From the NCBI GenBank assembly GCA_910575585.1, contig CAJTGF010000019.1, positions 1-64,000 on the forward strand: a stretch of DNA of 64,000 nucleotides, read 5' to 3'. The DNA is from Clostridiaceae bacterium. GTDB lineage: Bacteria > Bacillota > Clostridia > Lachnospirales > Lachnospiraceae. The position numbers and the translations under genes were made by a program. Under the pieces are notes generated by a model that was not told the DNA's origin, did no database searches, and worked only from the letters and a program-made list of their open reading frames with translations. The first letter of the stretch is position 1. Each line of letters begins with the position of its first letter. Positions 7,828 to 24,672 of the stretch are shown here, one piece after another.

Positions 7828-8171
7828 AACAGATATCTTTCCGCCGCAACGTTGAAACAGCGTCCCCTATCGGAAACACCTTAAGCGGGCAAATCCCGGC
7901 CAGCGAATATCTGCTTTTGCCAGGGCGGGAAGGGTGGGATGGTACCGGCAGGGTGAATCTATGCCATAGAGATGAGACCAGGAAAACAGGAGGGCCTCAC
8001 CCCGAGTGTTTTCTGCTTTAAGGGCTCATCGGAATGTTTGGCATATCTGAACCCGGACGGTACCATCCCACCCTTCCCGCCCTGGCCTCACGACAATCCC
8101 CGCCCATTGCTCACTCAACAATACAGCAATTCCATTATTTTGCCATTTTGCGCAAGATATCGTTCTTAAGG
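7828..8171 (+). repeat. Foldback repeat element, copy B (single unit)
   Basis: Non-coding. Stem arms of 36 nt lie at 7919-7954 and 8051-8086 and match at 32 positions. The loop contains conserved inner stems ATGCCA/TGGCAT and GATGAG/CTCATC. The right flank (CCCGCCCATTGCTCACTC ... CGTTCTTAAG) is shared with the 23.6 kb copy. The arm sequence (GGGCGGGAAGGGTGGG type) differs from all other copies, yet pairing is kept. Confidence 0.85.
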
Positions 8172-8327
8172 GTCTAAATAATTCACAAGCCCCATTCCTA
8201 CAGGGGGCGGACGGCAGATATCCTGTTGTCATCAGAGTTAGAGCGCAAAAGATTCAAAGGCATAGTACACATGCCGGAAGGGTTCCTTCCCTTCCATATT
8301 TCTATATTTACACAAGCGCATAACCGT

Positions 8328-9822
8328 TCATTCCTTCCCCAAAAGAGTAAACTCCGCCATGTCCGCCTCCTGACTGTTCCTTCCGATCATTACCTGGAAT
8401 CTGCCGGGTTCTGCTCTAAACTCCATATCCTTCCCATAGAATTTAAGCATATCCTGCCGGATTTCAAATTCTGCCGTCCTCCGCTCCCCTGCTTTCAGCT
8501 CCAGCCTGCAAAAGCCTTTCAGCTCCTTTACCGGGCGGACTACACTTCCTGATACATCCCTGATGTACATCTGGACGATTTCCACCCCGGCCACAGAGCT
8601 TTCATTGGCAACCTCCACCCAGGCGCGCAAAGTTTCGTTCGGATGCAGCCTGTCTGAACTAAGCCTGATTCTGCCATAAGATGCTTTATGGTAAGACAGA
8701 CCGTACCCAAAGGGATACAGAGGGTCATTGGGGCAGTCTAAGTATCTGGAAGTAAACCGGCTGCTGTGAGACGAAGCGCCTGCCAGTCGGCCTGTCTGAA
8801 AATGAGAATAGTATACAGGCATCTGCCCCGCACATCTGGGAAAGCTCATGGTAAGCCTCCCTGACGGATTCACTTTCCCAAAAATGATATCCGCCAATCC
8901 ATGCCCTCCCTCTGTTCCCGGAAACCATGCCTCCAGAACAGCGTCCGCCTGCTGTCGGATATCAGTCAAAATAAGAGGGCGGCCGCTGAAGAGGACCAGC
9001 ACGATCGGTTTCCCCTGCCTCCTCACTTCCTCCAGAAGCTGCCGCTGAATCTTCGGGATATCAGGCTGTGTCCTGCTGCCTCCCTCCCCGCTCTGCCTGG
9101 GATGCTCTCCCAAAGCCATGATGACCACATCCGCTTTTTGGGCCGCGTTTACGGCTTCCTGCAGCTGCCTCTCTGCCTCCGCAGCATCCTTCTGCCCATC
9201 TGCCTCCTCTTTTCCGGCTTTCCCGAAAAGTCCCAGAGCGGATTCGTCCTCCAGATAGCCGCATCCTCTGGCAGTGAGAAGACGTTCTTCTCCCAGCGCC
9301 TCCCCAAGAGCTTCCTTTAATGTCACTGTGTCATCTCTATTTCCATGAACTGCCCACAGCCCCATCAAATCCTTACTGTCTCCGTAAGGCCCGATCAGCG
9401 CCGCCTTTTTTATGGAATTCGGGTTGAGAGGGAGAAGTCCGTCCCGGTTCTCCAACAGCACCACGGTTTCCGCTGCCAGCTCTCTGGCTTTCTCCCTGTG
9501 GGCCGGACAGCAGAACAGCTTTCTTTCAGCCGACTCGTCCGCTCCTCTGTAAGGGTCTTCAAAAAGCCCCAATTTATTTTTCAATTTCAAAACTCTCCAT
9601 ACGGCCTGGTCAATCTTTTCCATGCTTATTTTCCCGTCCTCCAAAAGAGGCTTCAATTCATTGGCATAGCAAGAAGTCTTCATATCTATGTCCACCCCCG
9701 CCTCCATAGCCAGGAAGGCAGCCTCCCCGGCATCTTCCGCCACGCCGTGGGCAATCAGTTCTTGGATGGCCGCATAGTCCGTGATAACCACTCCGTCAAA
9801 TCCCCACTCCTGCCAGATTGAT
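8328..9822 (-). pseudogene. GH3 beta-glucosidase-like, 5' end lost
   Basis: About 495 codons of a family 3 glycoside hydrolase. The frame is open to about 9822 without a start: it begins within the catalytic domain just before WGFDGVVITDY, whose aspartate is the family nucleophile. The C-terminal (alpha/beta)6-type domain (WFPGTEGGHGLADIIFG) and the fibronectin-like tail (from FGYGLSYH) are complete. Some 250 N-terminal residues are missing, replaced by the repeat at 9826-10053. Not expected to be active, as most of the TIM barrel is absent. Confidence 0.88.
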
Positions 9823-9825
9823 GTA

Positions 9826-10053
9826 CTCTCGGAGTCTCTTTGTGCCTGATTTTGTGAGATGATTTTTTGTCAGATGCGCATACCCAAGGGCATACCGTAA
9901 TACATGCTCCTACGGAGCGGCGGCACTCTGCGCCACAAGGTATCAATTCATGTGCATATGACGGAAAATCAGCAGCTCCAGTCCTATATCGATGCCGGAA
10001 TGATCCACCGCTCTCCTCCTTCTGCTAACATTCTTTTAGAGCGTGTTTGAAAA
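9826..10053. repeat. Dispersed repeat family II, copy 1
   Basis: Shares with 57981-58236 a left block (CTCTTTGTGCCTGATTTTG followed by TGAGATG), an internal block GCGCATATGACGGAAAATC and the end motif GAGCGTGTTTGAA, here in the opposite orientation. It breaks the GH3 gene. Probably the remains of an IS or MITE; no transposase is visible. Confidence 0.6.
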
Positions 10054-10074
10054 TTCTCTTTCAGTTTGAGGTAA

Positions 10075-10113
10075 CAAAAGGGCATCCGATTCACATTGTG
10101 AAATCGGATGCCC
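10075..10113 (-). terminator. Rho-independent terminator of the flavoprotein gene
   Basis: Stem GGGCATCCGATT / AATCGGATGCCC followed on the minus strand by TTTTGTT, 27 bp after the stop at 10140. Confidence 0.85.
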
Positions 10114-10139
10114 TGATTTTATCAGAGAACAGGTCACAT

Positions 10140-12188
10140 TTATGCCCGATGAGCCGCGTTTTTGCCTGCCAGTCGGCCAAATGTAACGCTCCGCCCGGCG
10201 GCAGCGCCTGCCAGCAGGTTGGGATAGCTGGCGTCGAAGTAGCTGCCGGAACAGTCGCCCGCCACATAAAGGCCTTCAATGGGCTTGCCCTCGGTATCTA
10301 CAGCGTTCATGTTGGTATCGATTTTAATGCCGTCCAGGGTACAGATGAAGTAGCCTCCCGACATGCGCAGACCCTCAAAGGGCGCGGTACGAAGCTGAGA
10401 CAGGCGGTATGCCTCCTTGCCGAAGTCCTCATCCGCCTGCTTGTCATACAGCTCATTGTATCGGTCCACAGTGGCCTTAAAGTTGTCCGCAGGCAGACCC
10501 AGCTTCTCAGCCAGCTCCTCAATGGTGTCGGCCTTCACCACGATGCCCTGCTCCCGATACATGGGCATGAAGACCCCCTCGTTGAGATCCAGAGGCCACA
10601 CTGGATCTGTGCCATTGGCATGGGGAAACATACGGCTGCAGCCGTGGGAGTCGAACCGCTCCATATCCTTGATGTAGTCAGCATCCCACACCATGGCATA
10701 GGTCATACCGGGCAGGTTGAAGGCGTCGTGGAGGATGTGGTCGTAGCAGCCGCTCTCGTTAGTGAACCGGTTGCCGTTCAGATCCACCTTCAGGAACGGC
10801 TGGGAACCCATCCAGAACAGCACGCCTTCCTCCTGGCAGCCCACCTGATCCGGCTTGATGCCGCCGCGGTCAAAGAGCATGGAGGAATGGGCGTCATCCA
10901 TGGCGGCTCCGGCCCAGAGACAGGCCTTGATTCCGTCGCCCTGGCTTCCGGGGTAGGAGTAGTTGATGTTGATCATCTTCACGGTCTCGGGCTGAAGAGC
11001 CTTAAGCATATCCATATTCAGGCTGTAGCCGCCGGTGCAGACGATCACGCCCTTGCTGGTATTGTAGCGGACATAACCCTCATCGGTCCTGGCATAGATA
11101 CCGGTGACCTTGCCGCCTTCTTTGATCAGCTCCACCAGGGAAGTGCCGTAGTGGATCTCCAATCCCAGCCCCTGGCCGTAGTCCTTCAAAACGCTGGCAA
11201 TCCTGGCTGTCTGGCTGTCATGGTCGCCCTCCATAGTGCTGAACTGAACCGAATGACCCACATCGAAAACAGGATAGCGCACCTCATGGGAGTGATCGTC
11301 TACCTCATGCTTAAAGAAAATATCTTTTTCGGCCAGCCGGTCCGTATACCAATCGATTGCCTCACCGGATTTATCAGCCCAGACCTTGTACAGCCGCTGG
11401 TCGCCGTAGCCGTTGGACTGGCGGTACATCTCGGTGATCACATCAAACTTGTCCGGATTGTCGTTGTTTTCAATCTGCTGCCTGCTGCCGATGGCACCCA
11501 GAGTGTCCCGGACACCGGAACCGCCGTAGTCCTCGCCAAATTTTTCTATAAGGATGGTTTTGGCGCCCTCCTCCACAGCGGCGCAAGCGGCGAACAGCCC
11601 GGCGGTGCCGGCGCCAATGACCAACACTTCGGTGTCTGCCGTCTTAACCACGTCGGCATCGGCAATGACCGGTGCCTCACCCAGCCAGTCAACGGTTTCC
11701 TGTCCGTCATTCCCGTCATTCCCGCCGTTCCCGTCCCGGATCATGCTTACATCTATCCCCTTGGCCTGAGCGATACAATCTTCCAGGGCGGCCCTGACGG
11801 CTTTGGAAGTCACAGTGGCTCCGGAGACCCCGTCAACGTCGATGCTCTGCTTGTCCAGGATTTCCTGAGCCATCTTCTCGCCCACAGGCTTGCCCAAGCC
11901 CTCGGTTTCCCCGGCAGTGTCCACGACAGCGGAGATGATCTTGGTTTCATCTACTTCGATGGTAACAGTCACGTCGCTCTCCATGCCCTTGGCGCTGGCG
12001 GAGTAAGTACCTGGGATGTAAATCCCCGTCTCCTGGCTGGCGGAGGGGGAAGGGGCAACAGCAGAGCCGGAAGATCCGGAATCGTCCGGCGTGCCGCAGG
12101 CGGCCAGTGTGCCCAGCGCGGCAATGCCCGCCATACCGGCGGCACCTTTGAGAAAATTGCGGCGGGAAAGTTCTTTGTTCATGTTCAT
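10140..12188 (-). CDS. FMN-binding and FAD-dependent fumarate reductase-like lipoprotein
   Basis: 682 aa. Twin-arginine-like start (SRRNFLKG) with a lipobox-like LAAC at about 27-30 indicates export and possible lipid anchoring. An FMN-binding domain follows (about 55-145), with the SGAT motif whose threonine takes covalent FMN. The FAD_binding_2 domain (VLVIGAGTAGLFAACAA at about 189) runs to the C-terminus (GLYVAGDCSGSYFDASYPNLLAG). This family includes flavocytochrome-type fumarate, urocanate and other extracellular electron-accepting reductases; the substrate is unknown. A similar protein without the FMN domain lies at 45772. An IS sits 25 bp upstream of the start and separates it from any native promoter. 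Confidence 0.9.
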   Translation of the reverse strand: MNMNKELSRRNFLKGAAGMAGIAALGTLAACGTPDDSGSSGSAVAPSPSASQETGIYIPGTYSASAKGMESDVTVTIEVDETKIISAVVDTAGETEGLGKPVGEKMAQEILDKQSIDVDGVSGATVTSKAVRAALEDCIAQAKGIDVSMIRDGNGGNDGNDGQETVDWLGEAPVIADADVVKTADTEVLVIGAGTAGLFAACAAVEEGAKTILIEKFGEDYGGSGVRDTLGAIGSRQQIENNDNPDKFDVITEMYRQSNGYGDQRLYKVWADKSGEAIDWYTDRLAEKDIFFKHEVDDHSHEVRYPVFDVGHSVQFSTMEGDHDSQTARIASVLKDYGQGLGLEIHYGTSLVELIKEGGKVTGIYARTDEGYVRYNTSKGVIVCTGGYSLNMDMLKALQPETVKMININYSYPGSQGDGIKACLWAGAAMDDAHSSMLFDRGGIKPDQVGCQEEGVLFWMGSQPFLKVDLNGNRFTNESGCYDHILHDAFNLPGMTYAMVWDADYIKDMERFDSHGCSRMFPHANGTDPVWPLDLNEGVFMPMYREQGIVVKADTIEELAEKLGLPADNFKATVDRYNELYDKQADEDFGKEAYRLSQLRTAPFEGLRMSGGYFICTLDGIKIDTNMNAVDTEGKPIEGLYVAGDCSGSYFDASYPNLLAGAAAGRSVTFGRLAGKNAAHRA

Positions 12189-12213
12189 GTTTATGTTCCT
12201 CCCTTTTGTTCAT

Positions 12214-14019
12214 ATAACTTCTCGGAATCTTCAGCCCTTATTTCATGGGGCTTTCAGAACCTATCTTTCAAAAATCACCCACTTTTTTTCTCAAAAACAC
12301 TTGACAAACCAGTCAAAAAATGCGGCGCTTCGCGCCCTTGATCAAAAAGTACTTTTTTGATTGGAGGCGATTTTTGATGTTACCTTGTAACCCTGGCGGT
12401 CATGCCGCCTTTCAGGATACTTTCGTATCCCAGTTCCTTAAATTTTACCCTGATCCCTTTGTGCTTCCAAAAAGCACTTGGGATTATATCGTGCAGTTTT
12501 GGTACCTCGATCTTTCCAAGACGGATTCTATCATGCGGGAATGTTACTCTGTCTTTGGCCCGGAACCACGACTCCCTTCCTGCATGCTGCGCTCCTACCT
12601 GCTTGCTTTGAAACTGAAAGTTACTTCCATCACCGTCTGGTGCCGCATGCTTAAGGAATCTCCCCTTTATGCCATCCTCAGCGGGTTCTCTTTTGGCGAT
12701 ACCCCTGGTGTCGGTACTTTTTATGATTTCTTTTCCCGCGTCTGGCAGGATGACTCCAACAACCTTTCTCCGAAAGACTGGTTCCCTAAAATGAAGAAAA
12801 CTCCCAAGGGAAAGAAGAAAGGTGATAAGACTCCCTGCGATTCTTCCAGCACTGCTTCAAAACTTCTTCCCCTGCTGGAACGCTGGCAGTTAAAGCCTGA
12901 GAATCCCTTTTTCCTCATTTTCCGGCTTTATCACCAGCAGTTCCTGGACCAGTCCATCCACAGGGGGCTGGTTAATCACCGGCACCTGGCTCTTGCCGGT
13001 GACGGCACCCCTGTCCGTACTGCCGCACAGCAGCGCAAAAAGCGCATCTGCGATTGTAAGGAGAAAGGCTGTTCTTCTTGTAACTGTAAACGCCATTATT
13101 CCCAGCCCGACTGTAACTGGGGATGGGACTCTCACAGGGAATCCTATTTCTTCGGTTACCACCTCTACATGTATGTGGCTTCCGATTCCTTCAGCGATCT
13201 CCCTGTGTTTCCGCTTTTAGAGCGGGCCTCCCGGCATGACATGCTTTCCTTCCTGCATTCCTTTTTCACTATGAAAGCGTATCTTCCGAAATTCCGCATT
13301 GAAAAGCTCCTTCTGGATTCCGCACACGACGCTTACCCTGTTTATGAATACTGCAGACGGGAACATATCACACCGTTTATCGACCTCAATCCCGGACATA
13401 CCGGGCATTTTACCTATAAGGACGATTTTTCAATCGATGACGATGGTGTCCCTGTCTGTAAGTTGGGCTTACGTATGCATAAAGATGGATACGAGGCTGC
13501 CAAACACCGGGCAAAATACCGGTGCCCGAAATCAAACCGGAAACGCGGCTGCTTTTGTGAACACCCTTGTTCACCGGCAAAATATGGAAGAACCGTACAC
13601 ATCTTTACCGATGACAATCCAAGGTTATTTAACATACCGCCAAGGGACTCTAAAGCATGGGAAAAGGAATATGACAGAAGAACTTCTGTGGAGCGCTCCA
13701 ACAAGCGGGAGAAAGAGGACTATAAATTAGAAGACGGCAGGCACCGCTCGACGAAGATGTGGTACTGCCGCCTCTACGGCATCATGATGCTGCAGCATCT
13801 TGATGCCTGGGAAATGCCATCGACTGAGGCATTTCAAGAATCATTATTAGGATTCACCGCCTAATAATGATATCTTAAGCGATTCCATAAGATTTTTCAA
13901 GGCATAGTACCCGCTATGTCCAATGTTTATGTCCATTTTTCTCAAATTTCTTTTCCTGCACGATATTCAGTTGTCAATTTTCAGTTAGAATCACATTCAT
14001 TGAGATTCCGAGAAGTTAT
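12214..14019 (+). mobile_element. Complete insertion sequence, about 1.8 kb
   Basis: Bounded by inverted repeats ATAACTTCTCGGAATCT (12214-12230) and its complement at 14003-14019, with one or two mismatches beyond. It contains a single transposase gene. Flanking TA dinucleotides are the only candidate target duplication. The left end lies just upstream of the flavoprotein ribosome site. Confidence 0.8.
12377..13864 (+). CDS. DDE-type IS transposase
   Basis: 495 aa from ATG 12377, chosen for GGAGG upstream; the frame continues upstream to 12320 without a site. Features typical of IS4/IS5/IS1182-like DDE enzymes: an N-terminal DNA-binding part, LALAGDGTPV (first acidic residue, about 210), a cysteine-rich insert (CDCKEKGCSSCNC, about 225-240), LLDSAHDAYPVYEY (about 320) and a late glutamate in RRTSVERSNKREKEDYKLE (about 440-460). 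The Cys-rich insert suggests metal binding. The frame looks intact and lies within matching inverted repeats, so the IS may be active. Confidence 0.85.
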   Translation: MLPCNPGGHAAFQDTFVSQFLKFYPDPFVLPKSTWDYIVQFWYLDLSKTDSIMRECYSVFGPEPRLPSCMLRSYLLALKLKVTSITVWCRMLKESPLYAILSGFSFGDTPGVGTFYDFFSRVWQDDSNNLSPKDWFPKMKKTPKGKKKGDKTPCDSSSTASKLLPLLERWQLKPENPFFLIFRLYHQQFLDQSIHRGLVNHRHLALAGDGTPVRTAAQQRKKRICDCKEKGCSSCNCKRHYSQPDCNWGWDSHRESYFFGYHLYMYVASDSFSDLPVFPLLERASRHDMLSFLHSFFTMKAYLPKFRIEKLLLDSAHDAYPVYEYCRREHITPFIDLNPGHTGHFTYKDDFSIDDDGVPVCKLGLRMHKDGYEAAKHRAKYRCPKSNRKRGCFCEHPCSPAKYGRTVHIFTDDNPRLFNIPPRDSKAWEKEYDRRTSVERSNKREKEDYKLEDGRHRSTKMWYCRLYGIMMLQHLDAWEMPSTEAFQESLLGFTA

Positions 14020-14086
14020 GAAAGTTGCATAAATTTAGGGGCTAAATTTCTGTAATTATTTTTTGCCTCCTTTCCGCCTATCCACG

Positions 14087-14124
14087 CAAAAAAGCCGCCC
14101 GTTTTTTCATGCCGGACGGCTTTT
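14087..14124. terminator. Bidirectional rho-independent terminator
   Basis: AAAAAGCCGCCCG / CGGACGGCTTTT stem with T-runs on both sides. It lies just after the IS and downstream of the small minus-strand frame ending at 14187. Confidence 0.75.
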
Positions 14125-14186
14125 AGCGTAATGTGATAGATCAAATATTATTTTTTTTGGTTGGTAGGCTTTGAAAAGCCTTGTAT

Positions 14187-14426
14187 TTACAGTGTTCTTA
14201 TTAAGAAACAATCATATGGGATAAATGGCTCTTCCAATAAATAAACAATGACCCCGCATCCAGCCATTACACAATATTCTTCCATAGGCGCTATTATAAC
14301 TTTTTCTACATCTCCATAAAAATCTCCAATACATACCACTTTATCAGATGATTTTATTTTCAGTAAAACCGTTTCATATTCACTATAAACTTCGTAATGG
14401 ATGCTTTCTGCTAATTTTTTATTTCC
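14187..14426 (-). pseudogene. Remnant of a small unknown protein, no start codon
   Basis: An open frame of about 79 codons with protein-like composition (...HYEVYSEYETVLLKIKSS..., ...GCGVIVYLLEEPFIPY...) ends at TAA 14187-14189. A ribosome-site-like GAGGAGA precedes it, but no ATG, GTG or TTG lies at the expected place, and a stop precedes the frame at 14427. Likely a gene that lost its start, or a truncated one. I do not recognise the family. Confidence 0.4.
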
Positions 14427-14522
14427 TTATCTCCTCTATTATTTGGTAAAATTAATTTGTATTACCGACATGTTCGAAACATCAAATACCTGCCAGACAG
14501 TAACTTGAACATTATCACTGCT

Positions 14523-15238
14523 TCATGGCATGCTTTCCCCAATGGGGATCTCATAAACCTCTTTCTCCAGGTATTCCCAGTCTCCGCTGCCCACCGATTC
14601 ATAGGAAGTCCAGGCCACCTTGAGTTGGGTTTCGGATATGTAAAATCTGATGCGGATTTCAACTCCGCCACTTGTGTCAATATCAGGCTTTGCCACATAA
14701 TCAAAGGTGTAAACCGTGTGTTCCTCCCCCCAGTCTGACATGTCCCGGTAATAGAGCTCCGCGTTTCGGGCAGGTGTCTTCAACAGCCCAAACAGCTTCT
14801 CCTGCTCCTCTTTTCCAGGGGCATAAAAATAGCATCGGGCGCCATTGGATGTAAGGTAAAATTCATCTTCTCCTGCCTTGTCCTGGAACAGGATTTCGCC
14901 GTCGCGCAGATCCAGAGCCTATGCTCCTCCTGTGCCAGCCCGCACATGATATCGCTGCCCGTACCGGGGTATTCATATAAAACGGATTCGCTTTCATCAA
15001 GGATCCGAAGATCATATTCATAGGTTTTCTCATAATCTTCTGCCTTCTCCCATTGAAGGTAACCGTATGCCCCCTCAACGGGAATATTTTTATGATATGT
15101 GGTATAATCTCTTGTATTACCGGACGGATATATGATCTCATACGTGCCCCCGCCTGACTCCGAATCACAGCCCATCATCAGCAGCGCGGCGGCCATACAG
15201 CAGAGAGAAAACCCGCGGCGCGTCCTGTTTGCTTTCAT
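14523..15238 (-). pseudogene. Frameshifted lipoprotein of unknown function
   Basis: Starts at ATG 15238 with a lipoprotein signal (LLMMGC). The frame changes near 14925: downstream, the protein continues in another frame (LDLRDGEILFQDKAGEDEFY ... to the stop at 14523). Joining the two gives one continuous protein of about 238 aa; a single base appears to be missing around CATAGGCTCTGG. Function unknown; a small surface or secreted lipoprotein is likely. It precedes, on the opposite strand, the sigma/anti-sigma pair. Confidence 0.75.
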
Positions 15239-15307
15239 ATCTGCCCTCTTTCCTTATTTATAACTCATTATAAAAGGCTGTAAATTTCAAGTCAATGAAA
15301 AATCCGG

Positions 15308-15336
15308 TGAAACTTTTTATCTGCCTGCAGCATCAA
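15308..15336 (+). promoter_or_regulatory. Candidate ECF-sigma promoter
   Basis: TGAAAC (15308-15313), 17 bases, then CATCAA (15331-15336). This resembles ECF promoters with a TGAAAC -35 element, such as those used by SigV-like factors, and lies directly upstream of the sigma gene, suggesting autoregulation. Confidence 0.45.
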
Positions 15337-15368
15337 ACATATTAGAAAGGCAAAAGGAGGTGGTTACC

Positions 15369-15929
15369 TTGGTAATATTTCCCGGGAAAAAAGAGAAAAC
15401 CAGCAAGGAGTTGATCGAGCATATAATTTTAGAAAAATATAACCATTATTACCGCCTTGCCTTCAGTTATGCGCACAATGAAGAGGACGCAAAGGATATT
15501 GTGCAGAACGGGGCATATAAGGCTTTAAGAAGTCACCATACCTTAAAAGACCTTCAACTGGCGGAGACATGGCTGTATCGGATCATGCTCAATGAATGTT
15601 TTCAGTATATACGCCGGCCCAAACATATCTCATATGAGCGGATACTGGATGAGGAAGACGCAGACTTGGGCAGTACGGAGGATACCTATGCCAACGTAGA
15701 TTTACAGAACGCCATCCATATGCTTCCTGAGAAAGACAAGGCGGTGATTATCTTAAAATATTTTGAGGATAAAAAGCTGGAAGAGATTTCCCATATCCTG
15801 GACGAAAATATCAGCACCGTTAAAAGCAGACTGTACCGCGCCATGAAAAAGCTGCGGGCGGTATTAGATGACAGACCAGCTTATGGCAATGACGACAAAT
15901 ATACCAAAAAGGCAGGTGGGACAAAGTGA
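15369..15929 (+). CDS. ECF RNA polymerase sigma factor (SigV-like)
   Basis: 186 aa from TTG 15369, chosen because AGGAGG lies eight bases upstream; the GTG at 15360 overlaps that site. Region 2 (LAFSYAHNEEDAKDIVQNGAYKA, about 25-50) and region 4 (MLPEKDKAVIILKYFEDKKLEEISHIL...STVKSRLYRAMKKLR, about 115-165) are clear. Directs RNA polymerase to stress promoters. The stop overlaps the anti-sigma start, and pairing with an RsiV-like protein suggests control by regulated proteolysis in response to a cell-envelope signal such as lysozyme. Confidence 0.92.
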   Translation: MVIFPGKKEKTSKELIEHIILEKYNHYYRLAFSYAHNEEDAKDIVQNGAYKALRSHHTLKDLQLAETWLYRIMLNECFQYIRRPKHISYERILDEEDADLGSTEDTYANVDLQNAIHMLPEKDKAVIILKYFEDKKLEEISHILDENISTVKSRLYRAMKKLRAVLDDRPAYGNDDKYTKKAGGTK

Positions 15930-16831: not shown

Positions 16832-16840
16832 TGTAAGGAA

Positions 16841-16966: not shown

Positions 16967-17368
16967 TTAAGGCTGATGCCCGGCTCCCATATTTTCCTGC
17001 TTCCACTGCATCCACCTGCCGCCATTCATCAAAAGTTTCCAGGCTCCCCGGTAGTCCAGGCCGAAATAGTCAAACTGCCGCATCAGATTGCTGACCAGCT
17101 GCCCTTCCGGCCTGCTGGCGCCCATACAGCAGCCGCCTTTTAAGACCATCTGGCTGCCTTTATAATCAGCTTTCGCGTTTTCGTGTATCCGGTACTTATC
17201 CAGCAGACTCACATAAAGCTCCCGCAGCTGTCCATTGTCCACACCTTCTGTACACCAGACGGCGTAGATCAGCATCGTAGAGTCTTGTTCCTTTGAGAGA
17301 TAGGTGAGAAAATACTCCGCCGCCAGCGTGTATTGTTGGGATTTCATCACCTGGATATCATATTCCAC
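16967..17368 (-). CDS. Hypothetical protein, probably part of a broken gene
   Basis: 133-codon frame from GTG 17368. The first 16 residues (EYDIQVMKSQQYTLAA) look like the end of the conserved region of the Rpn-like family whose 5' part lies upstream in other frames. The remainder (TYLSKEQDSTMLIYAVWC... KGGCCMGASRPEGQLV...) is unlike that family and unrecognised. It may be a chimera formed by deletion. No convincing ribosome site. Confidence 0.4.
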   Translation of the reverse strand: MEYDIQVMKSQQYTLAAEYFLTYLSKEQDSTMLIYAVWCTEGVDNGQLRELYVSLLDKYRIHENAKADYKGSQMVLKGGCCMGASRPEGQLVSNLMRQFDYFGLDYRGAWKLLMNGGRWMQWKQENMGAGHQP

Positions 17369-17806
17369 GGTTCCTCCCGGCGGTTACCATCCGGATTTTC
17401 AGCGTTTCAGGCGTTGATGCATGATGCCTCAAAAACAATACGGCGGAATGAGGAAGGGTCACGGTAAGGATATTTCCATTAACCGTCCCTTCATCCAGCG
17501 CGATTTGAGTATCGTACTCAAAAAATCGGATCAACATGCTGTTATCGGTACTGCTCTGACATTCCAGATGGTATTTTTTTGTTTCTGTTCCTTCTATTCT
17601 GAAACTGGTGTCCGTAATCCGTTCCTCTTCATTTCCGCCCTGCTGGTTCAGAAAGTGCTCGTTTGGGGAGAAGACGATTTTTTCCTGTCCCGAATAATTC
17701 CCCGAACACCTCGTTTATCACAGGGATGATTAGGGGGGCTGCAATCATTCAGCAGCGTGCGGAACACATCGTCATACGGCGTATTCGTTATCCTTACATT
17801 GCCCAT
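17317..17806 (-). pseudogene. Rpn/transposase-like PD-(D/E)XK family gene, multiply frameshifted
   Basis: ATG 17806 with AAAGGAG upstream begins TPYDDVFRTLLNDC, the hallmark start of a family abundant in Lachnospiraceae. A frame change near 17735 (run of C) leads into LIIPVINEVFGE. Another near 17680 leads into SPNEHFLNQQGG...RITDTSF...KKYHLECQS, and a third near 17375 into EYDIQVMKSQQYT. The intact family is thought to be a nuclease or transposase-related protein. At least three frameshifts make this copy non-functional. Confidence 0.75.
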
Positions 17807-17876
17807 GGTTATCCGCTCCTTTTATTATATTTTACCACATCGGGCAAATTTACTCAATCAGAAAACACACGGTTCG

Positions 17877-18425
17877 TTACTGCAAACCGATTTCTTTTTC
17901 CGCAGAGGAAAAGGGGGCGGACATGTTCAGTTCTTCCACCGGTATTCTGGTCTGTGAGTGGCGCTCCGGGTCTGCAGCCTCTTCATTTGGATACCCGACT
18001 GCAAGGATATTAACCGGTTCCAGATGATCCGGCAGCCCAAATTCTCTGCATATCACGTCCGGCTTAAAATAGCATATCCAGACGGATCCAAGCTCTAATT
18101 CCGTTGCCTGCAGCATCATGTGGTCTGTCAGTATGGAAGCGTCTATGTCTGTGGTCCGCTTTTTGTCAAAGGGACGCACCCATGCCTTTTTATGGTCAGC
18201 GCAGACGATGATGGCCAGGGGTGCGCCGTAAAGGTTGGCGCCCTTTCCTATCTTTCCAAGCCCCTCCTTGCTCTGAACTGTGATCAGCCGGACGGGCTGG
18301 AGGTTGGCCGCTGTAGGCGCAACATGGGCAGCCTCCAGAATCTTTTTCAGCTTTTCTTCCTCCACCTTTTTGTCCTTGTAGCTCCGGACGGAATAACGCT
18401 TCTTTGCAATTTCGATAAAATCCAT
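17877..18425 (-). CDS. Nitroreductase-family flavoprotein
   Basis: 182 aa from ATG 18425 (AGAGAGG upstream; a TTG at 18434 is less likely). An N-terminal KRYSVRSYKDK motif and APTAANLQPVRLITVQ show FMN/NAD(P)H binding. C-terminal VNILAVGYPNEEAADPERH is typical of this family. FMN-dependent reductases of this type act on nitro compounds or quinones; substrate unknown. Divergent from an HxlR regulator at 18572, with a palindromic operator between them, so it is probably its target. Confidence 0.9.
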   Translation of the reverse strand: MDFIEIAKKRYSVRSYKDKKVEEEKLKKILEAAHVAPTAANLQPVRLITVQSKEGLGKIGKGANLYGAPLAIIVCADHKKAWVRPFDKKRTTDIDASILTDHMMLQATELELGSVWICYFKPDVICREFGLPDHLEPVNILAVGYPNEEAADPERHSQTRIPVEELNMSAPFSSAEKEIGLQ

Positions 18426-18517
18426 AATAGTCAATCCTCTCTTTCTGTTGTATACTGAATGTGTTAATTAACCGTTGTCCCCATTTTAGCAGGACGTAAG
18501 AATTCCGCAAGAATGTA

Positions 18518-18543
18518 CTTTTGGGGAAGATACTTCCCAAAAG
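18518..18543. promoter_or_regulatory. Candidate HxlR operator
   Basis: Inverted repeat CTTTTGGGGAAG-ATA-CTTCCCAAAAG between the divergent nitroreductase and HxlR genes. HxlR regulators commonly bind such dyads between themselves and a divergent oxidoreductase gene. Confidence 0.6.
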
Positions 18544-18571
18544 GGTAGTATTCAAAGATTGGAGGTATGTC

Positions 18572-18934
18572 ATGGAATTTTCAAAAGACCAGTTCAGCTG
18601 TCCCGTTGAGGCCACGCTGTTTCTGATCGGCGGGAAATACAAATCCCTTATCCTCTGGCATCTGATAGAAAAACCGCTCCACTACATGGAGCTGCAGCGC
18701 ATGATCCCCAAGGCGACGCCTAAGATGCTGTCGCAGCAATTACATGACCTGGAGGAATGCGGGATGCTTATCCGGGAAGTTATCCCGGATAAGCCGCCCA
18801 GGACGCTGTACTCTCTCACCTCATTCGGACAGAGCATCATCCCCGTACTGGATGCCATGTGCGATTGGGGCGCGGGCTTTTTGGACGGGCTGGACATCCG
18901 GCCGCCATGCAGCGCAAGAAAAGCAAGGTCTTAA
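18572..18934 (+). CDS. HxlR-family transcriptional regulator
   Basis: 120 aa from ATG 18572 (GGAGG upstream). Winged helix with the family pattern CPVEATLFLIGGKYKSLILWHL (about 11-32), MELQRMIPKATPKMLSQQLHDLEECGMLIREV and LTSFGQSIIPVLDAMCDWG. Likely senses redox or electrophile stress through the conserved N-terminal cysteine and controls the divergent nitroreductase. The last nine residues come from DNA at the junction with the following TetR frame. Confidence 0.92.
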   Translation: MEFSKDQFSCPVEATLFLIGGKYKSLILWHLIEKPLHYMELQRMIPKATPKMLSQQLHDLEECGMLIREVIPDKPPRTLYSLTSFGQSIIPVLDAMCDWGAGFLDGLDIRPPCSARKARS

Positions 18935-19496
18935 TACGGAAACTGTTGTAAAAACAGCAGCATTATTGATTGAAGAAAACGGCTATGAGAATTTAACTTT
19001 ACATAAGCTGGCATCAAAACTAAATATAAAACCCGCCTCTTTATATACTCATATCCAAGGAATTGATGAACTGTATGTATCACTGGCTAATATGGCATTA
19101 AAACAGTTAAACGGCATGATGTTAGACGCTGCAAAAGGAAAGAAACGTGGAGACGCGTTTCGGGCAGTAGCTACGGCATATTGTACATATGTAAAACAAA
19201 ACCCTGAGATGTATCGAATAATTATGAAAATCCCCCATAGTAATTCGGAAGAATTGATTAAAACAGGGCGGGCAGTCAAATCAATTTTATTTGATGTCTT
19301 GTCGCAATATACGAAAGAGAATGATAAAATCATCCTTTATTCTCGATACTATCACAGCATTTTGCATGGATTTGTTTCACTGGATCAAACTGGATTTTTT
19401 GATGACAAACCTCCTGCAGATACAAGTTTATCAGATATAATAAACAATTTTTTGAGCAACTTGAAAAAATTTAGTCAATCCATGAGGAGGAATTAA
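18924..19496 (+). CDS. TetR/AcrR-family regulator lacking its native start
   Basis: The sequence from GLNTETVVKTAALLIEENG through the TetR helix-turn-helix (LTLHKLASKLNIKPASLYTHI) to a WHG-type C-terminal domain is complete and in frame. No start codon precedes it at the usual place, because the DNA before about 18915 belongs to the HxlR gene in another frame. The frame is open upstream to ATG 18744, so a fused or coupled product is possible. I read this as a deletion joint between two regulator genes. Followed after 1 bp by the PEBP gene. Confidence 0.7.
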   Translation, partial: QGLNTETVVKTAALLIEENGYENLTLHKLASKLNIKPASLYTHIQGIDELYVSLANMALKQLNGMMLDAAKGKKRGDAFRAVATAYCTYVKQNPEMYRIIMKIPHSNSEELIKTGRAVKSILFDVLSQYTKENDKIILYSRYYHSILHGFVSLDQTGFFDDKPPADTSLSDIINNFLSNLKKFSQSMRRN

Positions 19497-19497
19497 A

Positions 19498-19962
19498 ATG
19501 GATATTTTATTCTTTGAATGTAAGGGTATGAAAGACGGAGAAATATTCCCGAAAGTAAATACAGGAAGAGGACAAGATATTTCGCCTGAATTTTTAATAA
19601 AGAATTTATCTCCATGCGCAAAAACACTCGCTATTACTCTTGAAGATATAAAGCATCCGATTTTTAAGAATTTTACACATTGGCTTATCTGGAATATCCC
19701 GGCCGGTGAAAAAATAAAGGGAGCAATTCCGGGCGGAAAAATTATTCCGAGTTTAGGAAATGCCAGACAAGGAATTGGATATGGAGTATATAAGTATGCT
19801 GGCCCAAAACCGCCAAAGGGCAAGCAGCATTTATATCGCTTTACTGTTTACGCTCTTGACAGTAAAATCGCCTTAAGATTTCCACACACAAAAAGCAATT
19901 TTATCAAAAAAGCGAAAGAACACATCATTCAGCAAGGCAGTATTATCGGTAAATTTGAGTAA
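19498..19962 (+). CDS. YbhB/YbcL-type phosphatidylethanolamine-binding-like protein (PEBP family)
   Basis: 154 aa. Motifs ISPEFLIKNLSPCAKTLAITLEDI, FTHWLIWNIPA and GYGVYKYAGPKPPKGKQHLYRF are diagnostic of bacterial PEBP/Raf-kinase-inhibitor-like proteins. These are cytoplasmic, with a conserved anion-binding pocket and poorly known function. ATG 19498 follows GAGGAGG. Probably cotranscribed with the TetR frame and a likely target of it. Confidence 0.92.
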   Translation: MDILFFECKGMKDGEIFPKVNTGRGQDISPEFLIKNLSPCAKTLAITLEDIKHPIFKNFTHWLIWNIPAGEKIKGAIPGGKIIPSLGNARQGIGYGVYKYAGPKPPKGKQHLYRFTVYALDSKIALRFPHTKSNFIKKAKEHIIQQGSIIGKFE

Positions 19963-19991
19963 AGGAATTTTGCTCCTGCAACAGATGCGGA

Positions 19992-20026
19992 GTGAGGGGA
20001 GCTTTTGGGCCCAAAAGCTTCCTCAC
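19992..20026. terminator. Convergent hairpin terminator
   Basis: GTGAGG..AGCTTTTGGGC / GCCCAAAAGCT..CCTCAC palindrome between convergent genes, overlapping the stop of the minus-strand HxlR gene. There is no T-run, so termination strength is uncertain. Confidence 0.55.
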
Positions 20027-20352
20027 ACCTGCTGACTGTTTTTCTTCTTGTATTCGGTCCCCCACGAAGACATGGCGTCCAATACAGGTTTTAGGCTGGC
20101 CCCTGTTTCCGTAAGCGTATATTCGACCCGCGGCGGTACTTCGGCATAGATTTTACGGGTAAGCAGGCCGCTGTCTTCCATTGAGCGCAAATTGGCAGTC
20201 AGCACTTTTTGTGAAATATTTCCCACCGACTTTTTTAACTCTCCAAACCGTTTTGTGCCCTCCATCAGATCCCGGATAATCAGCACCTTCCAGCGGTCGC
20301 TGATAAGCATTAACGTAGTCTCTACCGGACAGGCAGGTAAATTTTTTCCCAT
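20023..20352 (-). CDS. HxlR-family transcriptional regulator (second)
   Basis: 109 aa from ATG 20352 (GGGGGATCC upstream). Winged-helix pattern CPVETTLMLISDRWKVLIIRDL, FGELKKSVGNISQKVLTANL and VEYTLTETGASLKPVLDAM. Divergent from a broken gene at 20516, so its target may have been destroyed. The intergenic region has a GCAC-6-GTGC dyad at about 20398-20411 that could be its operator. Confidence 0.9.
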   Translation of the reverse strand: MGKNLPACPVETTLMLISDRWKVLIIRDLMEGTKRFGELKKSVGNISQKVLTANLRSMEDSGLLTRKIYAEVPPRVEYTLTETGASLKPVLDAMSSWGTEYKKKNSQQV

Positions 20353-20515
20353 CAGGATCCCCCATTTTTTCACAATTGTTTCTTTTTGGTAACTACGGCA
20401 CAATTAAGTGCTTACTTTACATTTTCTCTCTACGGATATATTGTAATCTAACAGGCGGGAAAAAACAAGCCGCAAACAAATCAAAAAAACATGAAAGAAT
20501 CAAGAGGAGGACCTT

Positions 20516-20556
20516 ATGACACAGAGCGAACGGCTTCTTTATCTGATACAATATCT
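20516..20556 (+). pseudogene. 5' fragment of a regulator gene cut by a foldback repeat
   Basis: AGGAGG then ATG 20516 encodes MTQSERLLYLIQYLL, which looks like the start of a WYL/DeoR-type winged-helix regulator. At 20557 the sequence becomes the end of the foldback repeat (CCTAACCCGG), after which stops occur. The rest of the gene is not found in the window. Confidence 0.6.
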
Positions 20557-21022
20557 CCTAACCCGGATAAACCGGAACTTTAAATTTGTTATGTTGCTGT
20601 TTAGTTGAGTGAGCAAAGGGCGGATTTAGTCGTGGGCCCGGGAGGGAAGGCAGGCTGTGTGCCGTTCGGGTTCAGATATGCCAAACATTCCGATGAGCCC
20701 AAAACGGGAACCAGTCGGGTATCATCCCTCCTGTTTCCCTGGTCTCATCCAATGTCAGTTAGTTAATAACGATATTTGTATGGTTAGATTTCATTATATG
20801 GGGTCTAACCATTTTTTGTTTTTTCAAAAACTGTTAATTTCATTCTAATCCAAGGAAGTTTTTAAATTGATTTAAAATCGTGTACAAAATCATTTCCATA
20901 CTATAGCAGGCATAGACACCTTTTGACCCCAGCATCATGACATTGATATCTGAACCCGGACGGGACATCCCTCCTTCTCTGTCTGCCCCACGACAATCCC
21001 CGCCCCAACTTTACTCACTCCA
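20557..21022 (-). repeat. Foldback repeat element, copy C (interrupted)
   Basis: The left end CCTAACCCGGATAAACCGG matches 23614 exactly, followed by one stem arm and the loop of a reverse-oriented unit up to GGTCTCATC (20741-20749). An IS remnant (20750-20945) follows, then the other side of a forward-oriented unit with a different stem arm and the shared CACGACAATCCCCGCC tail. The middle of a two-unit element appears to have been lost. Confidence 0.7.
20750..20945. mobile_element. 196-bp IS remnant or MITE in the loop of a foldback repeat
   Basis: Bounded by CAATGTCA (20750) and TGACATTG (ending 20945). An inner hairpin lies near 20775-20815 (GGTTAGA ... TCTAACC). No coding capacity. Inserted after GGTCTCATC, the same nine bases that follow the IS end at 119. 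Confidence 0.6.
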
Positions 21023-21047
21023 TGAAAAGTAACAAATTTGTAAAATA

Positions 21048-21083
21048 TGAAAAGAGGCTGACCTGTTTCATCAGCCTCTTTCT
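21048..21083 (-). terminator. Terminator of the collagen-like gene
   Basis: AAAGAGGCTGA / TCAGCCTCTTT stem followed on the minus strand by TTCATATTTT; 34 bp after the stop at 21117. Confidence 0.85.
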
Positions 21084-21116
21084 TCGCTATCCTTTCATAT
21101 TTTTCAGTCCTCTTTC

Positions 21117-23138
21117 TTAATCTATTTTCCGTATTATCAGCTTTATGGTATTGTACTGCGCGCTGCCCGAACTAACCGCCTTGATCGAAACATTGACAGG
21201 CGCGGACATCACCGGAATAACTGTCTGACCTACCAAAACCTTTGTTTCTTCCTTATTTATAAAATCGGTCTTTTCATATCCGCCCATAGCCGTCTGGCCA
21301 TCACAAATCAGCTCCAGCCCTGCGTATGAAAGTAATTCGCCTTGGGGATCACATGAACAATCTACTTTAAAAAACACCTCATAGAATCCTGTTTCTTTCA
21401 ATACAAAGTTTTCTGTACCGGGCGGACAAAAAATGGCATCCCCTTCTTGTAGCATAACAGAGCTTATCGTCAAATTCTCTCCAGATTTCCTTGTTTGAAT
21501 ACCCCCATTGCCAGTGAATACCAGATTCAGCTTAGGCGCAGGGCCGGCAGGTCCTGTCGGGCCAGTTGGACCTGCTGCTGTCACCAGCTCAAAGTCTGGT
21601 GAGGTTCCGGGAGTTCCCGCCGGAGTATCCTTCACCGCCTGATATAAAGCTCCATTATGAAATACTATTTTCCCGGCAGAGTAGGACTTACCTGGTTCAA
21701 AGGCTTCCACTCTATCCAATCCCAATCCCGCCGGACCAGCGGGACCTGTCGCTGTCACCAGCTCAAAGTCCGGTGAGGTTCCGGGAGTTCCCGCCGGGGC
21801 ATCCTTCACCGCCTGATATAAAGCCCCATTATGAAATACCATTTTCCTGGACGGATAGGATTTCCCCGGTACAAAGGCTTCCACTCTATCTAATCCCGTT
21901 CCGGTGGGACCTGCCGGGCCAGTGGGGCCTGTTGGACCGATGGGACCCGTCGGCCCTACTGCTCCTGTGGCTCCCGCAGGTCCCTGGGGGCCGGTCGGAC
22001 CCACCGCCCCTGCCGCTCCCGCAGGTCCCTGGGGGCCGGTCGGACCTACCGCTCCTGCTGCTCCCGCAGGGCCCTGGGGGCCGGTCGGACCCACCGCTCC
22101 TGCTGCTCCCGCAGGGCCCTGGGGGCCGGCTGGGCCTGTCGCTCCCGTTGCTCCCGCCGGACCTGTTGGACCCTGGGGACCCGCTGTCCCTGTCGCTCCC
22201 GCAGGGCCCTGGGGACCTGTCGGACCCGTTGGACCCTGGGGACCTGTGGCCCCTGTCGTTCCCGCAGGGCCCTGGGAACCTGCCGGACCTGTCGGACCCT
22301 GGGGACCTGTGGCCCCTGTCGTTCCCGCCGGGCCCTGGGAACCTGCCGGACCTGTCGGACCCTGGGGGCCGGCTGTCCCTGTCGCTCCCGCAGGGCCCTG
22401 GGGACCTGTGGCCCCTGTCGTTCCCGCCGGGCCCTGGGAACCTGCCGGACCTGTCGGACCCTGGGGGCCGGCTGCCCCTGTCGCTCCTGCAGGCCCCTGG
22501 GGACCCGCTGCCCCTGTCGCTCCCACTGGGCCCTGGGGACCTGTCGGGCCTGTTGGGCCTGTTGGTCCCTGGGGACCCGCTTCCCCTGTCGCCCCCGCTA
22601 ATCCCTGGGGACCCGCTTCCCCTGTTGCTCCTACTGGGCCCTGGGGACCTGTCGGGCCTGTTGGTCCTTGGGGACCCGTTGCTCCTGTCGCTCCCACCGG
22701 CCCCGCTGCTCCCGTCGCCCCCGTCGCTCCCACCGGCCCCGCTGCTCCTGTCGCCCCCGTTGCTCCCGCTGGGCCCTGGGGACCTGTCGGACCTGCTGCG
22801 GTCACTAGAAGAAAGTCCGGTGACATTCCCGGAATCCCCACCGGATTATTCCTTGCAACCTGATACATCGCCCCATTATAGAACACAATGGTTCCGTTTC
22901 TGTAAGGGGTTCCCTCCACAAATGGAAGCACGGTCTCAAGTCCGGCTCCCGCCGGCCCCCGAAAGCCTCTGGGTCCCCGGGGGCCCATGGGACCTACGCA
23001 GCAATCCCCACAGCACTGGTTTTCGCAGTACTGCGTCTGAGATAAATGGCAGCCTCCCCCATCCAGTCCTGCCGCTTCTCTGTCTGCATATTCCCAATCA
23101 TCTAAGTGTTCATACTGGTCAAATTCATCTGGAAACAT
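21117..23138 (-). CDS. Collagen-like triple-helix repeat protein (exosporium/surface type)
   Basis: 673 aa from ATG 23138 (AAAGGAG upstream). An N-terminal acidic, Cys-rich segment ([10 protein letters not shown], about 40-50) is followed by Gly-X-Y tracts dominated by [12 protein letters not shown] (about 50-70 and 115-520). Three related modules ([22 protein letters not shown] near 75; [46 protein letters not shown]) resemble small carbohydrate-binding domains (CBM5/12-like). The C-terminus (about 535-673) looks like a beta-rich trimerising BclA/C1q-like head. No signal peptide is visible, consistent with a spore-coat or exosporium protein such as BclA. High GC and repeats make copy-number change likely. 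Confidence 0.85.
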
Positions 23139-23260
23139 AGTATTCTCCTTTCTCAATTCTAAGTGTGCTGAAAAACGCCTGTTCCAGATTCCATAAAAGG
23201 CACGGCCTTTATCTGGCTAAATGTTTCTTTTTAAACACATCTCAGAAAACTGTGCCATTT

Positions 23261-24580
23261 TCATATGCTTGGCTTACTATATTTTATGTCCCGAAATAAA
23301 TTTGGTTCCTCTCCTTCCAAATGCCCCACCGCTGTAAAAGAATTCATCAATTCGGGAGTGAACCCGTCATTGCTGATCCTGTAAAAATCAACGCCGGATT
23401 CCGCGGCGCTGTTGCTGTAAAACACCTCTATCACCCCATTTTCATAAAGTGAAAAGTTCGTCCTGCAGCCAAAGCTCATCTCCGGGAAAATATGAACCAC
23501 CTTCGTTCCGTCATAATCGTATAAATCATAATTCCAAGGATTAAAAACAGGATTTGATCCCCCGTTCTCTCCGTCCGCAATAATAAGCTCCTTAGTTCCG
23601 TTTCCGTCTATATCCTAACCCGGATAAACCGGAACTTTAAATTCGTTATGTTGCTGTATTGTTGAGTGAGCAATGGGCGGGGATTGTGGCGGAGCCCGGG
23701 AGGGAAGGCAGGCTGTGTGCCGTTCGGGTTCAGATATGCCAGACATTCCGATGAGCCCAAAACGGGAACCAGGAGGGGTTAGGCCCTCCTGGTTCCCTGG
23801 TCTCATCTCCATGGCATAGATTCACCCGCCCGGCACACAGCCTCCCTTCCCTCCCGGGCAAAAGCAGAATTCGCTGGCCGGGATTTGCTCACTTAAGATG
23901 GTTCCGATAGGGAACGCTGTTTCGACTCTGTAGTGAAAAGATAACTGCTTTGGCGGCAGATCCTTTTAGGTTCCCAACAACATCACCTTACTATTACTCA
24001 ACAATATACTTGAGGCCATAAAAAGAAGCTGTTTTTCGCTGCAAAGTTGAGGCAGCGTCCCCTGCCGAAACCACCTTAAGTGGGCAAACCTTAGCCAGCG
24101 AATTCTGGTTTTGCCAGGCAGAGGAGAGCTGTCCCGTCCGGGTGAATCTATGCCATGGAGATGAGACCAGGAAAGCAGGAGGGCTGATACCCGACTGATT
24201 TCCGCTTTGGGCTCATCGGAATGTTTGGCATATCTGAACCCGGACGGGACAGCTCTCCTCTGACTGGCCTCACGACACTCCCCGCCCATTGCTCACTCAA
24301 CAATACAGCAATTCCATTATTTTGCCATTTTGCGCAAGATATCGTTCTTAAGGATATAAAATGTATAGTAGATATCCTGTTTATGGGTACGGATCTCCAC
24401 ACCGATATCCTCCCCGAAACTGCTCTCATAGGTACCTGTATCCCGAAGAACCATGTAAAAATTATTTCTGACCATGGCACTATACTGAGCTAAAACACCG
24501 GAAAACACGGTCATTGATGGTTTTCCGGATTTTATAAAGCATGCCGTGGAAGAACGGAATCTTGATATTCAATTGCAAGG
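23261..24580 (-). pseudogene. VCBS/FG-GAP-like protein gene split by a foldback repeat
   Basis: 3' part 23261-23613 and 5' part 24354 to about 24580. Removing the 740-bp element and one ATAT copy joins YYTFYI directly to DGNGTKELIIADG in frame, giving a protein with a D-x-DGNGTKELI calcium-loop-like motif and ending SKPSI. The 5' end is lost at a second repeat fragment (24571). The intact family is a lipoprotein-like hypothetical protein common in Lachnospiraceae. Non-functional. Confidence 0.85.
23614..24353. repeat. Foldback repeat element, complete two-unit copy (740 bp)
   Basis: Flanked by a 4-bp direct repeat ATAT (23610-23613, 24354-24357). Consists of a reverse unit (stem arms 23694-23729 and 23824-23859, 36 nt) and a forward unit (arms 24113-24143 and 24238-24268, 31 nt) separated by a 250-bp spacer. 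The two units have different stem sequences but the same loop stems. The ends are CCTAACCCGG and, from the other side, CCTTAAGAAC. No frame of note. Confidence 0.85.
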
Positions 24581-24672
24581 CGACAGATCCTTTCAGATTC
24601 CCAACAACATCACCTTACCATTATTCAGCAATTCCATCATTTTGCCATTTTGCGCTAGAAATCGTTCTTAAG
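24571..24672 (+). repeat. Foldback repeat element, hairpin-less derivative
   Basis: The spacer motif (CCCAACAACATCACCTTAC) joins directly to the right end (TTTTGCCATTTTGCGC ... CGTTCTTAAG). This is what deletion between the direct repeats ACTCAACAATA at 23997-24007 and 24296-24306 of the complete copy would give. Confidence 0.75.

Follow-up and report, generated by a model that had tools for sequence, protein, structure and literature searches.

A probable family of mobile non-coding hairpins in Lachnospiraceae, with a conserved tip and stems that differ between copies

The hairpins and their carrier units

The window analysed here, a stretch of 64,000 nucleotides (nt) from a Clostridiaceae bacterium assigned to the Lachnospiraceae (assembly GCA_910575585.1, contig CAJTGF010000019.1, positions 1 to 64,000), contains several copies of a foldback element in which a conserved hairpin tip is carried on stems that differ wholly between copies yet remain self-complementary. 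The copies probably belong to a family of mobile, non-coding hairpins found in Lachnospiraceae, in which the tip is constrained in structure and the stems are homogenised at the DNA level.

Three long stems proposed in a preliminary description of the window are real, i.e. 7919-7954/8051-8086 (34/36 bases matched, mismatches at positions 30 and 32), 23694-23729/23824-23859 (33/36, mismatches at positions 16, 30 and 31) and 24113-24143/24238-24268 (30/31, mismatch at position 6). The fold energies of the three hairpins, from one DNA and two RNA folds, lie 11.5-12.6 standard deviations below those of dinucleotide shuffles, with 0/200 shuffles being as good. The inner stems and outer flanks are conserved across copies and the basal stem sequences are unrelated between them, both as first described.

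The second and third of these stems, which had been taken for separate units, are the two divergent hairpins of one mobile unit, delimited by its end motifs at 23614-24359 on the plus strand. CCTAA (23614-23618) is followed by a body that starts with CCCGG at 23619 and finishes in a right end, ..TTCTTAAGGATATAA, at 24359. The order of parts is left end (23616-23652, plus strand; the 21 nt from CCTAA onward are the same as in the left end of an element that encodes a 506-amino acid (aa) protein), flank (23652-23682, minus), hairpin 1 of stem type A (23694-23859, sense minus, tip at 23730-23824), central spacer (23930-24032, plus), hairpin 2 of stem type B (24113-24268, sense plus, tip at 24143-24237), the inverted flank common to both ends (24280-24310, plus) and right end (24311-24359, plus). 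Inverted repetition at the ends is seen only as ACCC/GGGT, and the sole open reading frames (ORFs) of at least 100 aa touching the unit, of 107 and 110 aa, lie over a hairpin, with no transposase gene inside.

The remaining copies in the window are incomplete. A right half-unit (7828-8180, plus) comprises a type C hairpin (7919-8086), the shared flank (8098-8128) and a right end (8129-8178). A damaged unit (20559-21020, plus) retains a left end, a type A left arm (20636-20664) and half a tip, interrupted by a foreign insertion from 20750, followed from 20946 by an unrelated right arm, so that folding is lost. The fourth stem reported at 20955-20985 is this orphan right arm; since the arm remaining in that copy is of type A, there is no foldback. 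Two further fragments were not among the copies first described, one at 120-337 (minus; part of the tip, a B-type arm, outer flank and spacer) and one at 24579-24681 (plus; a piece of spacer and a right end).

Within the genome of the window, a 353-bp query gave at least 77 matches; the copy numbers are lower bounds, both because the whole-genome searches scored 8 or 40 candidates per genome and because many copies in this genome lie at contig ends. The 83 usable hairpins, from 59 stretches used for typing rather than from a genome census, comprise 42 type B, 27 type A and 6 type C hairpins, with 8 others. They lie mostly in ~745-bp units with two divergent hairpins carrying different stems. 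Different named types are present in 26 of the 30 units that could be paired (A+B in 22, B+C in 4), the others being B+B (one unit, L022), B with another type (one) and two other types (two). As judged by eye, units differ in the order of their hairpins relative to the ends, and the spacer is reversed whenever this order is; such a pattern would be expected from inversion of the inner part between the shared inverted flanks. Units without their central part, in which the tip connects the left arm of one hairpin directly with the other hairpin's right arm, were observed at L053, L055, L064, L067 and L073:2546-2723, and are probably recombination products of the two inverted hairpins.

Both ends recur in this genome. 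With up to 3 mismatches, the left-end motif (21 nt) occurs 53 times, compared with 0 control hits, and the right-end motif (20 nt) 50 times, compared with 1. In one case (L034) a unit is nested within a second hairpin, at its tip, and a further copy of this second hairpin (L040) shows the site without the insertion; the site GCCCCTAAAGC in L040 becomes GCCCCTAA, unit, TCTAAAGC in L034. This pair of loci may be read either as a CTAA duplication or as insertion after CCTAA. A terminal repeat, AATTGCGAA, was considered as a general feature and rejected, being present in only 7/158 hairpins outside the window's own genome, a set that does not include the G022-type loci in which it is seen by eye.

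Stem divergence and arm-to-arm matching

Stems were compared among 353 hits, from which were removed 84 that overlapped with a better hit or were shorter than 95 nt, then 14 of the remaining 269 that were too near a contig end and, before clustering, 27 of 255 with arms below 20 nt. As some genomes are present in two collections, the 255 hairpins include duplicates (177 distinct arm pairs); identical arm pairs were counted once in the counts of differences and of gene positions. The 228 hairpins with arms of at least 20 nt form 101 stem clusters, with 156 distinct arm pairs. Among the 101 cluster representatives 28 are perfect, and the mean arm identity is 0.931.

Long stems are present in one genome, G147, in which at least 40 places match the tip. 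In 26 of the 29 copies listed the arms extend for 82-162 bp, and some are perfect over at least 100 bp; the other three have arms below 60 nt and were left out, and at least one cut copy (L171) is also outside the list. When the 26 copies are aligned from the tip without gaps, identity between the two arms of a copy averages 0.971 (lowest 0.767), compared with 0.416 between copies and 0.365 for shuffled arms. This contrast, which had been proposed as a check when the element was first noticed, depends on the ungapped, tip-anchored measure, which was used since free end gaps give no separation (0.760 between copies compared with 0.758 shuffled). Identity reaches 0.6 in 13/325 copy pairs and in 0/325 of the shuffles; thus some G147 arms visibly derive from a common stem, and most have diverged nearly beyond recognition, with all remaining self-matching. 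The outer ends of the stems differ among the 26 copies.

A possible origin of the arms as captured host sequence was set aside, in that the full-length matches of seven G147 arms to their own genome are only themselves. The same seven arms also match shorter and weaker pieces (18-132 nt, 69-100% identity), including several inverted pairs.

The way in which related stems differ is informative with respect to mechanism. In 12 nearest-neighbour pairs from G147, each copy being used once, 136/162 differences are concerted, i.e. present in both arms, which still pair; they comprise 79 transitions and 57 transversions. Only one arm is changed in 19 cases (5 giving G-U, 11 A-C and 3 other mismatches), and 7 differences are of other kinds. 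Allowing a shorter alignment length, with which other pairs are chosen, gives 86 concerted, 7 one-arm and 4 other differences.

The conserved tip and the forces acting on the hairpin

By contrast with the stems, the tip (CATGGAGATGAGACC .. apical hairpin .. GGGCTCATCGGAATG .. TGG, ~75-100 nt) is conserved, with the sequence beyond it varying by copy. A covariance model was built from an alignment of 34 hairpins (A1), and a search of Lachnospiraceae with it, as had been envisaged in the preliminary description, found the tip in 20/397 genomes of the family (18/334 genera; 8 candidates scored per genome). At the level of the order, 12/392 genomes match, and 12/12 of these are in Lachnospiraceae. 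The carriers in a scan for the tip pattern (at least 83 stretches, at least 80 loci) include, among the matches listed, Hungatella, Eisenbergiella tayi, Coprococcus comes, Lachnospiraceae bacterium CE91-St56 and others. Rfam release 15 gives 0 matches over the whole window at the gathering threshold, and a relaxed scan of 23600-24400 gives a lowest E-value of 0.11 (mir-671, 24.7 bits compared with a cut-off of 65). In five relatives the sole Rfam match is a neighbouring Clostridiales-1 RNA. A viral origin was also considered and rejected, the exact tip pattern being present in 0 viral contigs.

A separate insertion, with ends CAATGTCA.. and ..TGACATTG, was observed at an identical point of the tip in at least several copies, i.e. 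at 20750 and ~119 in the window and in L059, L066:4380, L162:2762, L298:2443, L300 and L301. On one or other side of it lies GATGAGACC, probably a 9-bp duplication. It seems to be a second element that favours these hairpin tips.

Covariation in the hairpins is very strong. In A1, 98.0% of cells pair, 30/42 pairs change on both sides, and the covariation score is 0.526, compared with 0.172 for shuffled and 0.073-0.111 for slid alignments. In a larger alignment (A4, 93 distinct rows) 41/42 pairs change on both sides and the score is 0.896 (shuffled, 0.212; slid, 0.123-0.143). The rows of A4 were fitted to the structure of the model, a bias in its favour, although the margin is judged to be far larger than expected from that. 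The argument first advanced for this element, i.e. that stems differing wholly between copies and still complementary imply something other than drift, therefore holds, with covariation far above both controls.

Mismatches and wobble pairs help to distinguish the possible causes, though the cells counted are not independent events. In the arms, with one representative for each of the 101 stem clusters, G-U (95) is not in significant excess over A-C (78; other mismatches 131; p=0.22). In the helices of the tip, G-U outnumbers A-C by 36 to 4 and 43 to 7 in two partly overlapping sets (42 and 67 of the 101 representatives); one fixed column supplies 20 of the G-U in each set, and without that column the counts are 39 and 11 (p=9e-5). 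The tip thus keeps RNA-like wobble pairs, and selection on structure fits the tip.

The question arises of whether the whole hairpin is a functional structured RNA, e.g. a 3'-end or antisense RNA, the stem of which is kept by ordinary compensatory mutation. The covariation in A1 and A4, the tandem G-A motifs that can be read in the tip of A1 and the G-U excess in the tip helices, with a weaker one in the innermost stem pairs, are all consistent with such an RNA, as is the orientation of the tip relative to genes described below. However, selection on an RNA needs no full pairing over arms as long as those of G147, and it should tolerate G-U, for which the arm mismatches show no significant excess; the 57 transversion-type double changes in G147 also argue against it. 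The arms are thus not accounted for by selection on an RNA alone, and this explanation is considered unlikely. For the long arms a better fit is obtained if one arm is recopied from the other, given the 97% identity within G147 copies compared with 42% between them, the 136/162 concerted differences there, the many transversions among these and the lack of a G-U bias in arm mismatches. Thus, of the two options first put forward, recopying is supported for the long arms and selection on structure for the tip, with RNA selection not supported as the sole cause of the arms.

With respect to genes, a stem end is at most 42 nt away for 22/26 of the gene 3' ends measured beside hairpins in G147, whereas only 4/25 gene 5' ends are within 50 nt of one. 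As ORF calling was mechanical and several hairpins come from one genome, individual assignments may be in error and some are not independent of each other. Of 140 non-redundant hairpins outside the window's genome, 68 have a gene 3' end within 100 nt on a single side, another 13 are flanked by two 3' ends and the remaining 59 have none at that distance. The sense strand of the tip opposes the gene concerned in 53 of the 68 and agrees with it in 15 (p=4e-6), which suggests either that insertion is directed to the neighbourhood of gene ends or that the hairpins have an antisense role.

The closeness to gene 3' ends in G147 and the mostly unrelated arms might alternatively indicate that each palindrome arose independently where it now lies, through template switching at the ends of genes, and that the copies share no descent. 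This is highly improbable, being contradicted by the conservation of the tip, which is searchable across 18 sampled genera; the arms of some copies can still be aligned and the units in the window's genome have defined ends.

Several results nevertheless weigh against a structure-constrained tip on stems homogenised at the DNA level, at least as a general account. Outside G147 concerted differences are less dominant, with 37 concerted, 39 one-arm and 10 other differences in 8 pairs from other genomes with arms of at least 30 nt, and 79, 43 and 9, respectively, in 38 pairs with arms of at least 12 nt. In the window's own genome the corresponding counts are 0, 13 and 6 (1 pair, arms of at least 30 nt) and 11, 26 and 9 (17 pairs, arms of at least 12 nt). 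The innermost 16 stem pairs have a G-U excess (39 compared with 20 A-C, p=0.018), so some RNA selection on the base of the stem is possible. The closeness to gene ends is weaker outside G147, with 45/120 3' ends and 22/85 5' ends within 50 nt. Finally, relatives of the 506-aa protein, considered below as the candidate mover, are present in 7/397 genomes of the family and the tip in 20/397, with both only in the window's genome; that protein cannot therefore be a general mover among these carriers. Homogenisation is thus not fast everywhere, the concerted share being lower outside G147, and so recopying dominates in the long G147 stems and the picture is mixed elsewhere.

The counts from the window's own genome would suit an ordinary miniature inverted-repeat transposable element (MITE), with three ancestral stem variants passed on as part of the unit and no special process to keep the arms matched; one-arm differences there exceed concerted ones. 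The comparison across genomes contradicts this, however, with its 101 stem clusters, high arm identity and predominance of concerted differences in G147, and of the explanations discussed it has the least claim to belief.

It may also be that stem renewal is a step in replication of the element, i.e. that the element passes through a single-stranded form which folds back at the tip, so that its 3' end can be elongated with the opposite arm as template and every round yields perfect arms. The long, often perfect arms of G147 with their unconserved outer ends are as expected on this basis. A fixed short sequence beside the insertion is a trait of single-strand transposons, and CCTAA is fixed before the unit, with CTAA at its right end. 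However, types B, A and C recur among the hairpins of the window's genome, and because the same three types are present in many copies, spread there does not renew stems. The homologous but diverged arms in G147 (13/325 pairs) also point to gradual drift. Copying at each round is thus, in our view, quite unlikely, and the earlier suggestion that one arm is recopied during spread by hairpin priming is not supported, the three main stem types being carried inside a transposon-like unit in the window's genome, where one-arm differences outnumber concerted ones.

If the tip is constrained in structure and the stems are homogenised, as we favour, the tip would be recognised by some factor, in the form of either RNA or single-stranded DNA. 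Mutations arising in one arm would be copied into the other, through template switching in replication or mismatch repair of an extruded hairpin, such that the stems could drift in sequence while remaining paired and could lengthen up to the neighbouring genes.

A candidate mover and relationship to known systems

The ends of the unit also bound the element that codes for the 506-aa protein; the left ends are identical over 21 nt and the right ends share TTTTGCCATTTTGCG. Both ends are present in 3/5 copies of the gene that were checked (L308, L309 and L310), the right end only in L311 and neither in the distant L314. One genome (G006) has two open copies of the gene (L308:85-1605 and L309:1483-3003). 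In the window's genome four contigs (C46, C47, C67 and C121) end inside the element ~100 bp from its left end, C3 carries a broken copy, C111 a broken relative with 35% identity, and C7 ends in the right side of the element. From the shared ends we infer that the 506-aa protein moves the units, and would do so by inserting right after CCTAA or by duplicating CTAA. The protein family is a candidate new transposase family.

The 506-aa protein gives no significant family match, the best E-values being 0.029 in Pfam (six members; 0.14 for L308), 0.044 in NCBIfam and 0.26 in PHROGs, and no significant PDB match by profile (best E-value 0.19). Sub-threshold Pfam and PDB hints for the family are to winged-helix regulators, at the C terminus. 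Neither the protein nor 5 other rows of its alignment match Y1, and a single-sequence model of a 308-residue fragment is uninformative (predicted local distance difference test score, 30.5). Plasmids also carry relatives (11 records, from Rhodococcus, Paraburkholderia, Mycobacterium and others), annotated as hypothetical protein or ArsR-type regulator or left unnamed; there is one relative on a viral contig and no phage match. A different candidate mover, the ORF at 12320-13864 (514 aa, with a weak DDE_Tnp_1 match below the Pfam cut-off), was rejected, as the ends of the unit were not seen beside it by eye.

Among known systems, the repetitive extragenic palindromic (REP) sequences, with REPINs (REP doublets forming hairpins) and bacterial interspersed mosaic elements, are similar in being palindromic repeats, many of them downstream of coding regions, and in forming head-to-head dimers of units with different stems or loops, as set out in the available text of PMC3733652. 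According to the same text, the stem of a REP spans 5-13 bp and one of its ends has an invariant tetranucleotide; GTAG REPs are associated with a tyrosine transposase (REP-associated tyrosine transposase, RAYT), and CGTC REPs are without a known transposase. By contrast with both types, the stems here are of ~30-160 bp, their feet are not constant, and the partner protein is without a Y1 match. The units are like bacterial MITEs in that they are short and non-coding, have both ends in common with a protein-coding element and are present in tens of copies; they are unlike them in having two large covarying hairpins, and in that variable target duplication was not seen, only the fixed CCTAA/CTAA. 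The comparison of L034 with L040 is compatible with IS200/IS605-like insertion 3' of a fixed short target, or with CTAA duplication. The 506-aa protein does not match the Y1 HUH transposase of IS200/IS605.

With respect to the stems, template switching between inverted-repeat arms comes closest as a known mechanism, judging by the available parts of PMC8794818, PMC8604942 and PMC3820800. In RNA hairpins maintained in this way, paired changes likewise arise together (Monttinen and Loytynoja 2022, PMC8794818, from the text available), and the proportion of transitions among concerted changes in G147 (58%) is near the 61.0% given there for instantaneous compensatory changes. The hairpins considered in that text are, however, in RNA genes such as those for rRNA, with helices of 2-10 consecutive pairs, whereas those described here are part of a mobile element in bacteria and have arms of up to 162 bp. 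Perfect inverted repeats, there of up to 284 bp, also occur as coding palindromes of nematomorph mitochondria (PMC6649704), but these are mitochondrial and lie inside genes, and the available text does not mention a conserved tip.

Among the best-matching open-licence papers listed, no description was found of such a Lachnospiraceae element, of a bacterial palindrome with changing stems or of an insertion sequence with this target. For the bcr1 repeats of Bacillus, we know of no exchange of stem sequence between copies. They resemble the present hairpins as a 167-bp repeat family with mobile-element traits and a common fold, according to the available part of PMC2267715. Overall, the hairpin family works like a REP or MITE in how it spreads and like a template-switch hairpin in how it evolves; it lacks the features that define REPs, and Rfam gives no match, so with respect to these two the early impression that no named class applies is sustained, with the qualification that the carrier unit behaves like a MITE. 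The analysis adds an apparently undescribed hairpin family and the orphan 506-aa candidate transposase family.

A bolder proposal is that the element is a self-made palindrome representing a new mobile-element class, in which the tip would fold a single-stranded intermediate and copying would rebuild the arms from tip-flanking sequence, the stems growing toward genes, with the 506-aa family as a new transposase class acting on such a substrate. We regard this as doubtful.

Paired changes are the usual proof of selection on RNA structure. In the present family, with 101 stem clusters and arms to 162 bp, many paired changes look like DNA-level recopying, and it provides a data set with which the two causes may be separated; covariance hits in mobile hairpins need a control for recopying. 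The carriers include culturable species, copies being held by Coprococcus comes and Eisenbergiella tayi.

The genes beside the hairpins were also compared. A recurring neighbour gene was sought by clustering the ORFs of 267 loci and was rejected, the largest cluster (78 loci) being hairpin read-through as judged by position, without its members being checked singly; 144 ORFs overlap the measured hairpins. The scanned representatives of four other clusters are an AraC regulator, an ABC transporter, an aminotransferase and a MatE protein. One hairpin copy is adjoined by the Clostridiales-1 RNA (RF01699, E-value 4.3e-24, L098:1879-2038). In the window, a 679-aa ORF with long collagen-like repeats (13 protein letters, not shown) lies between two hairpin copies, at 21117-23156.

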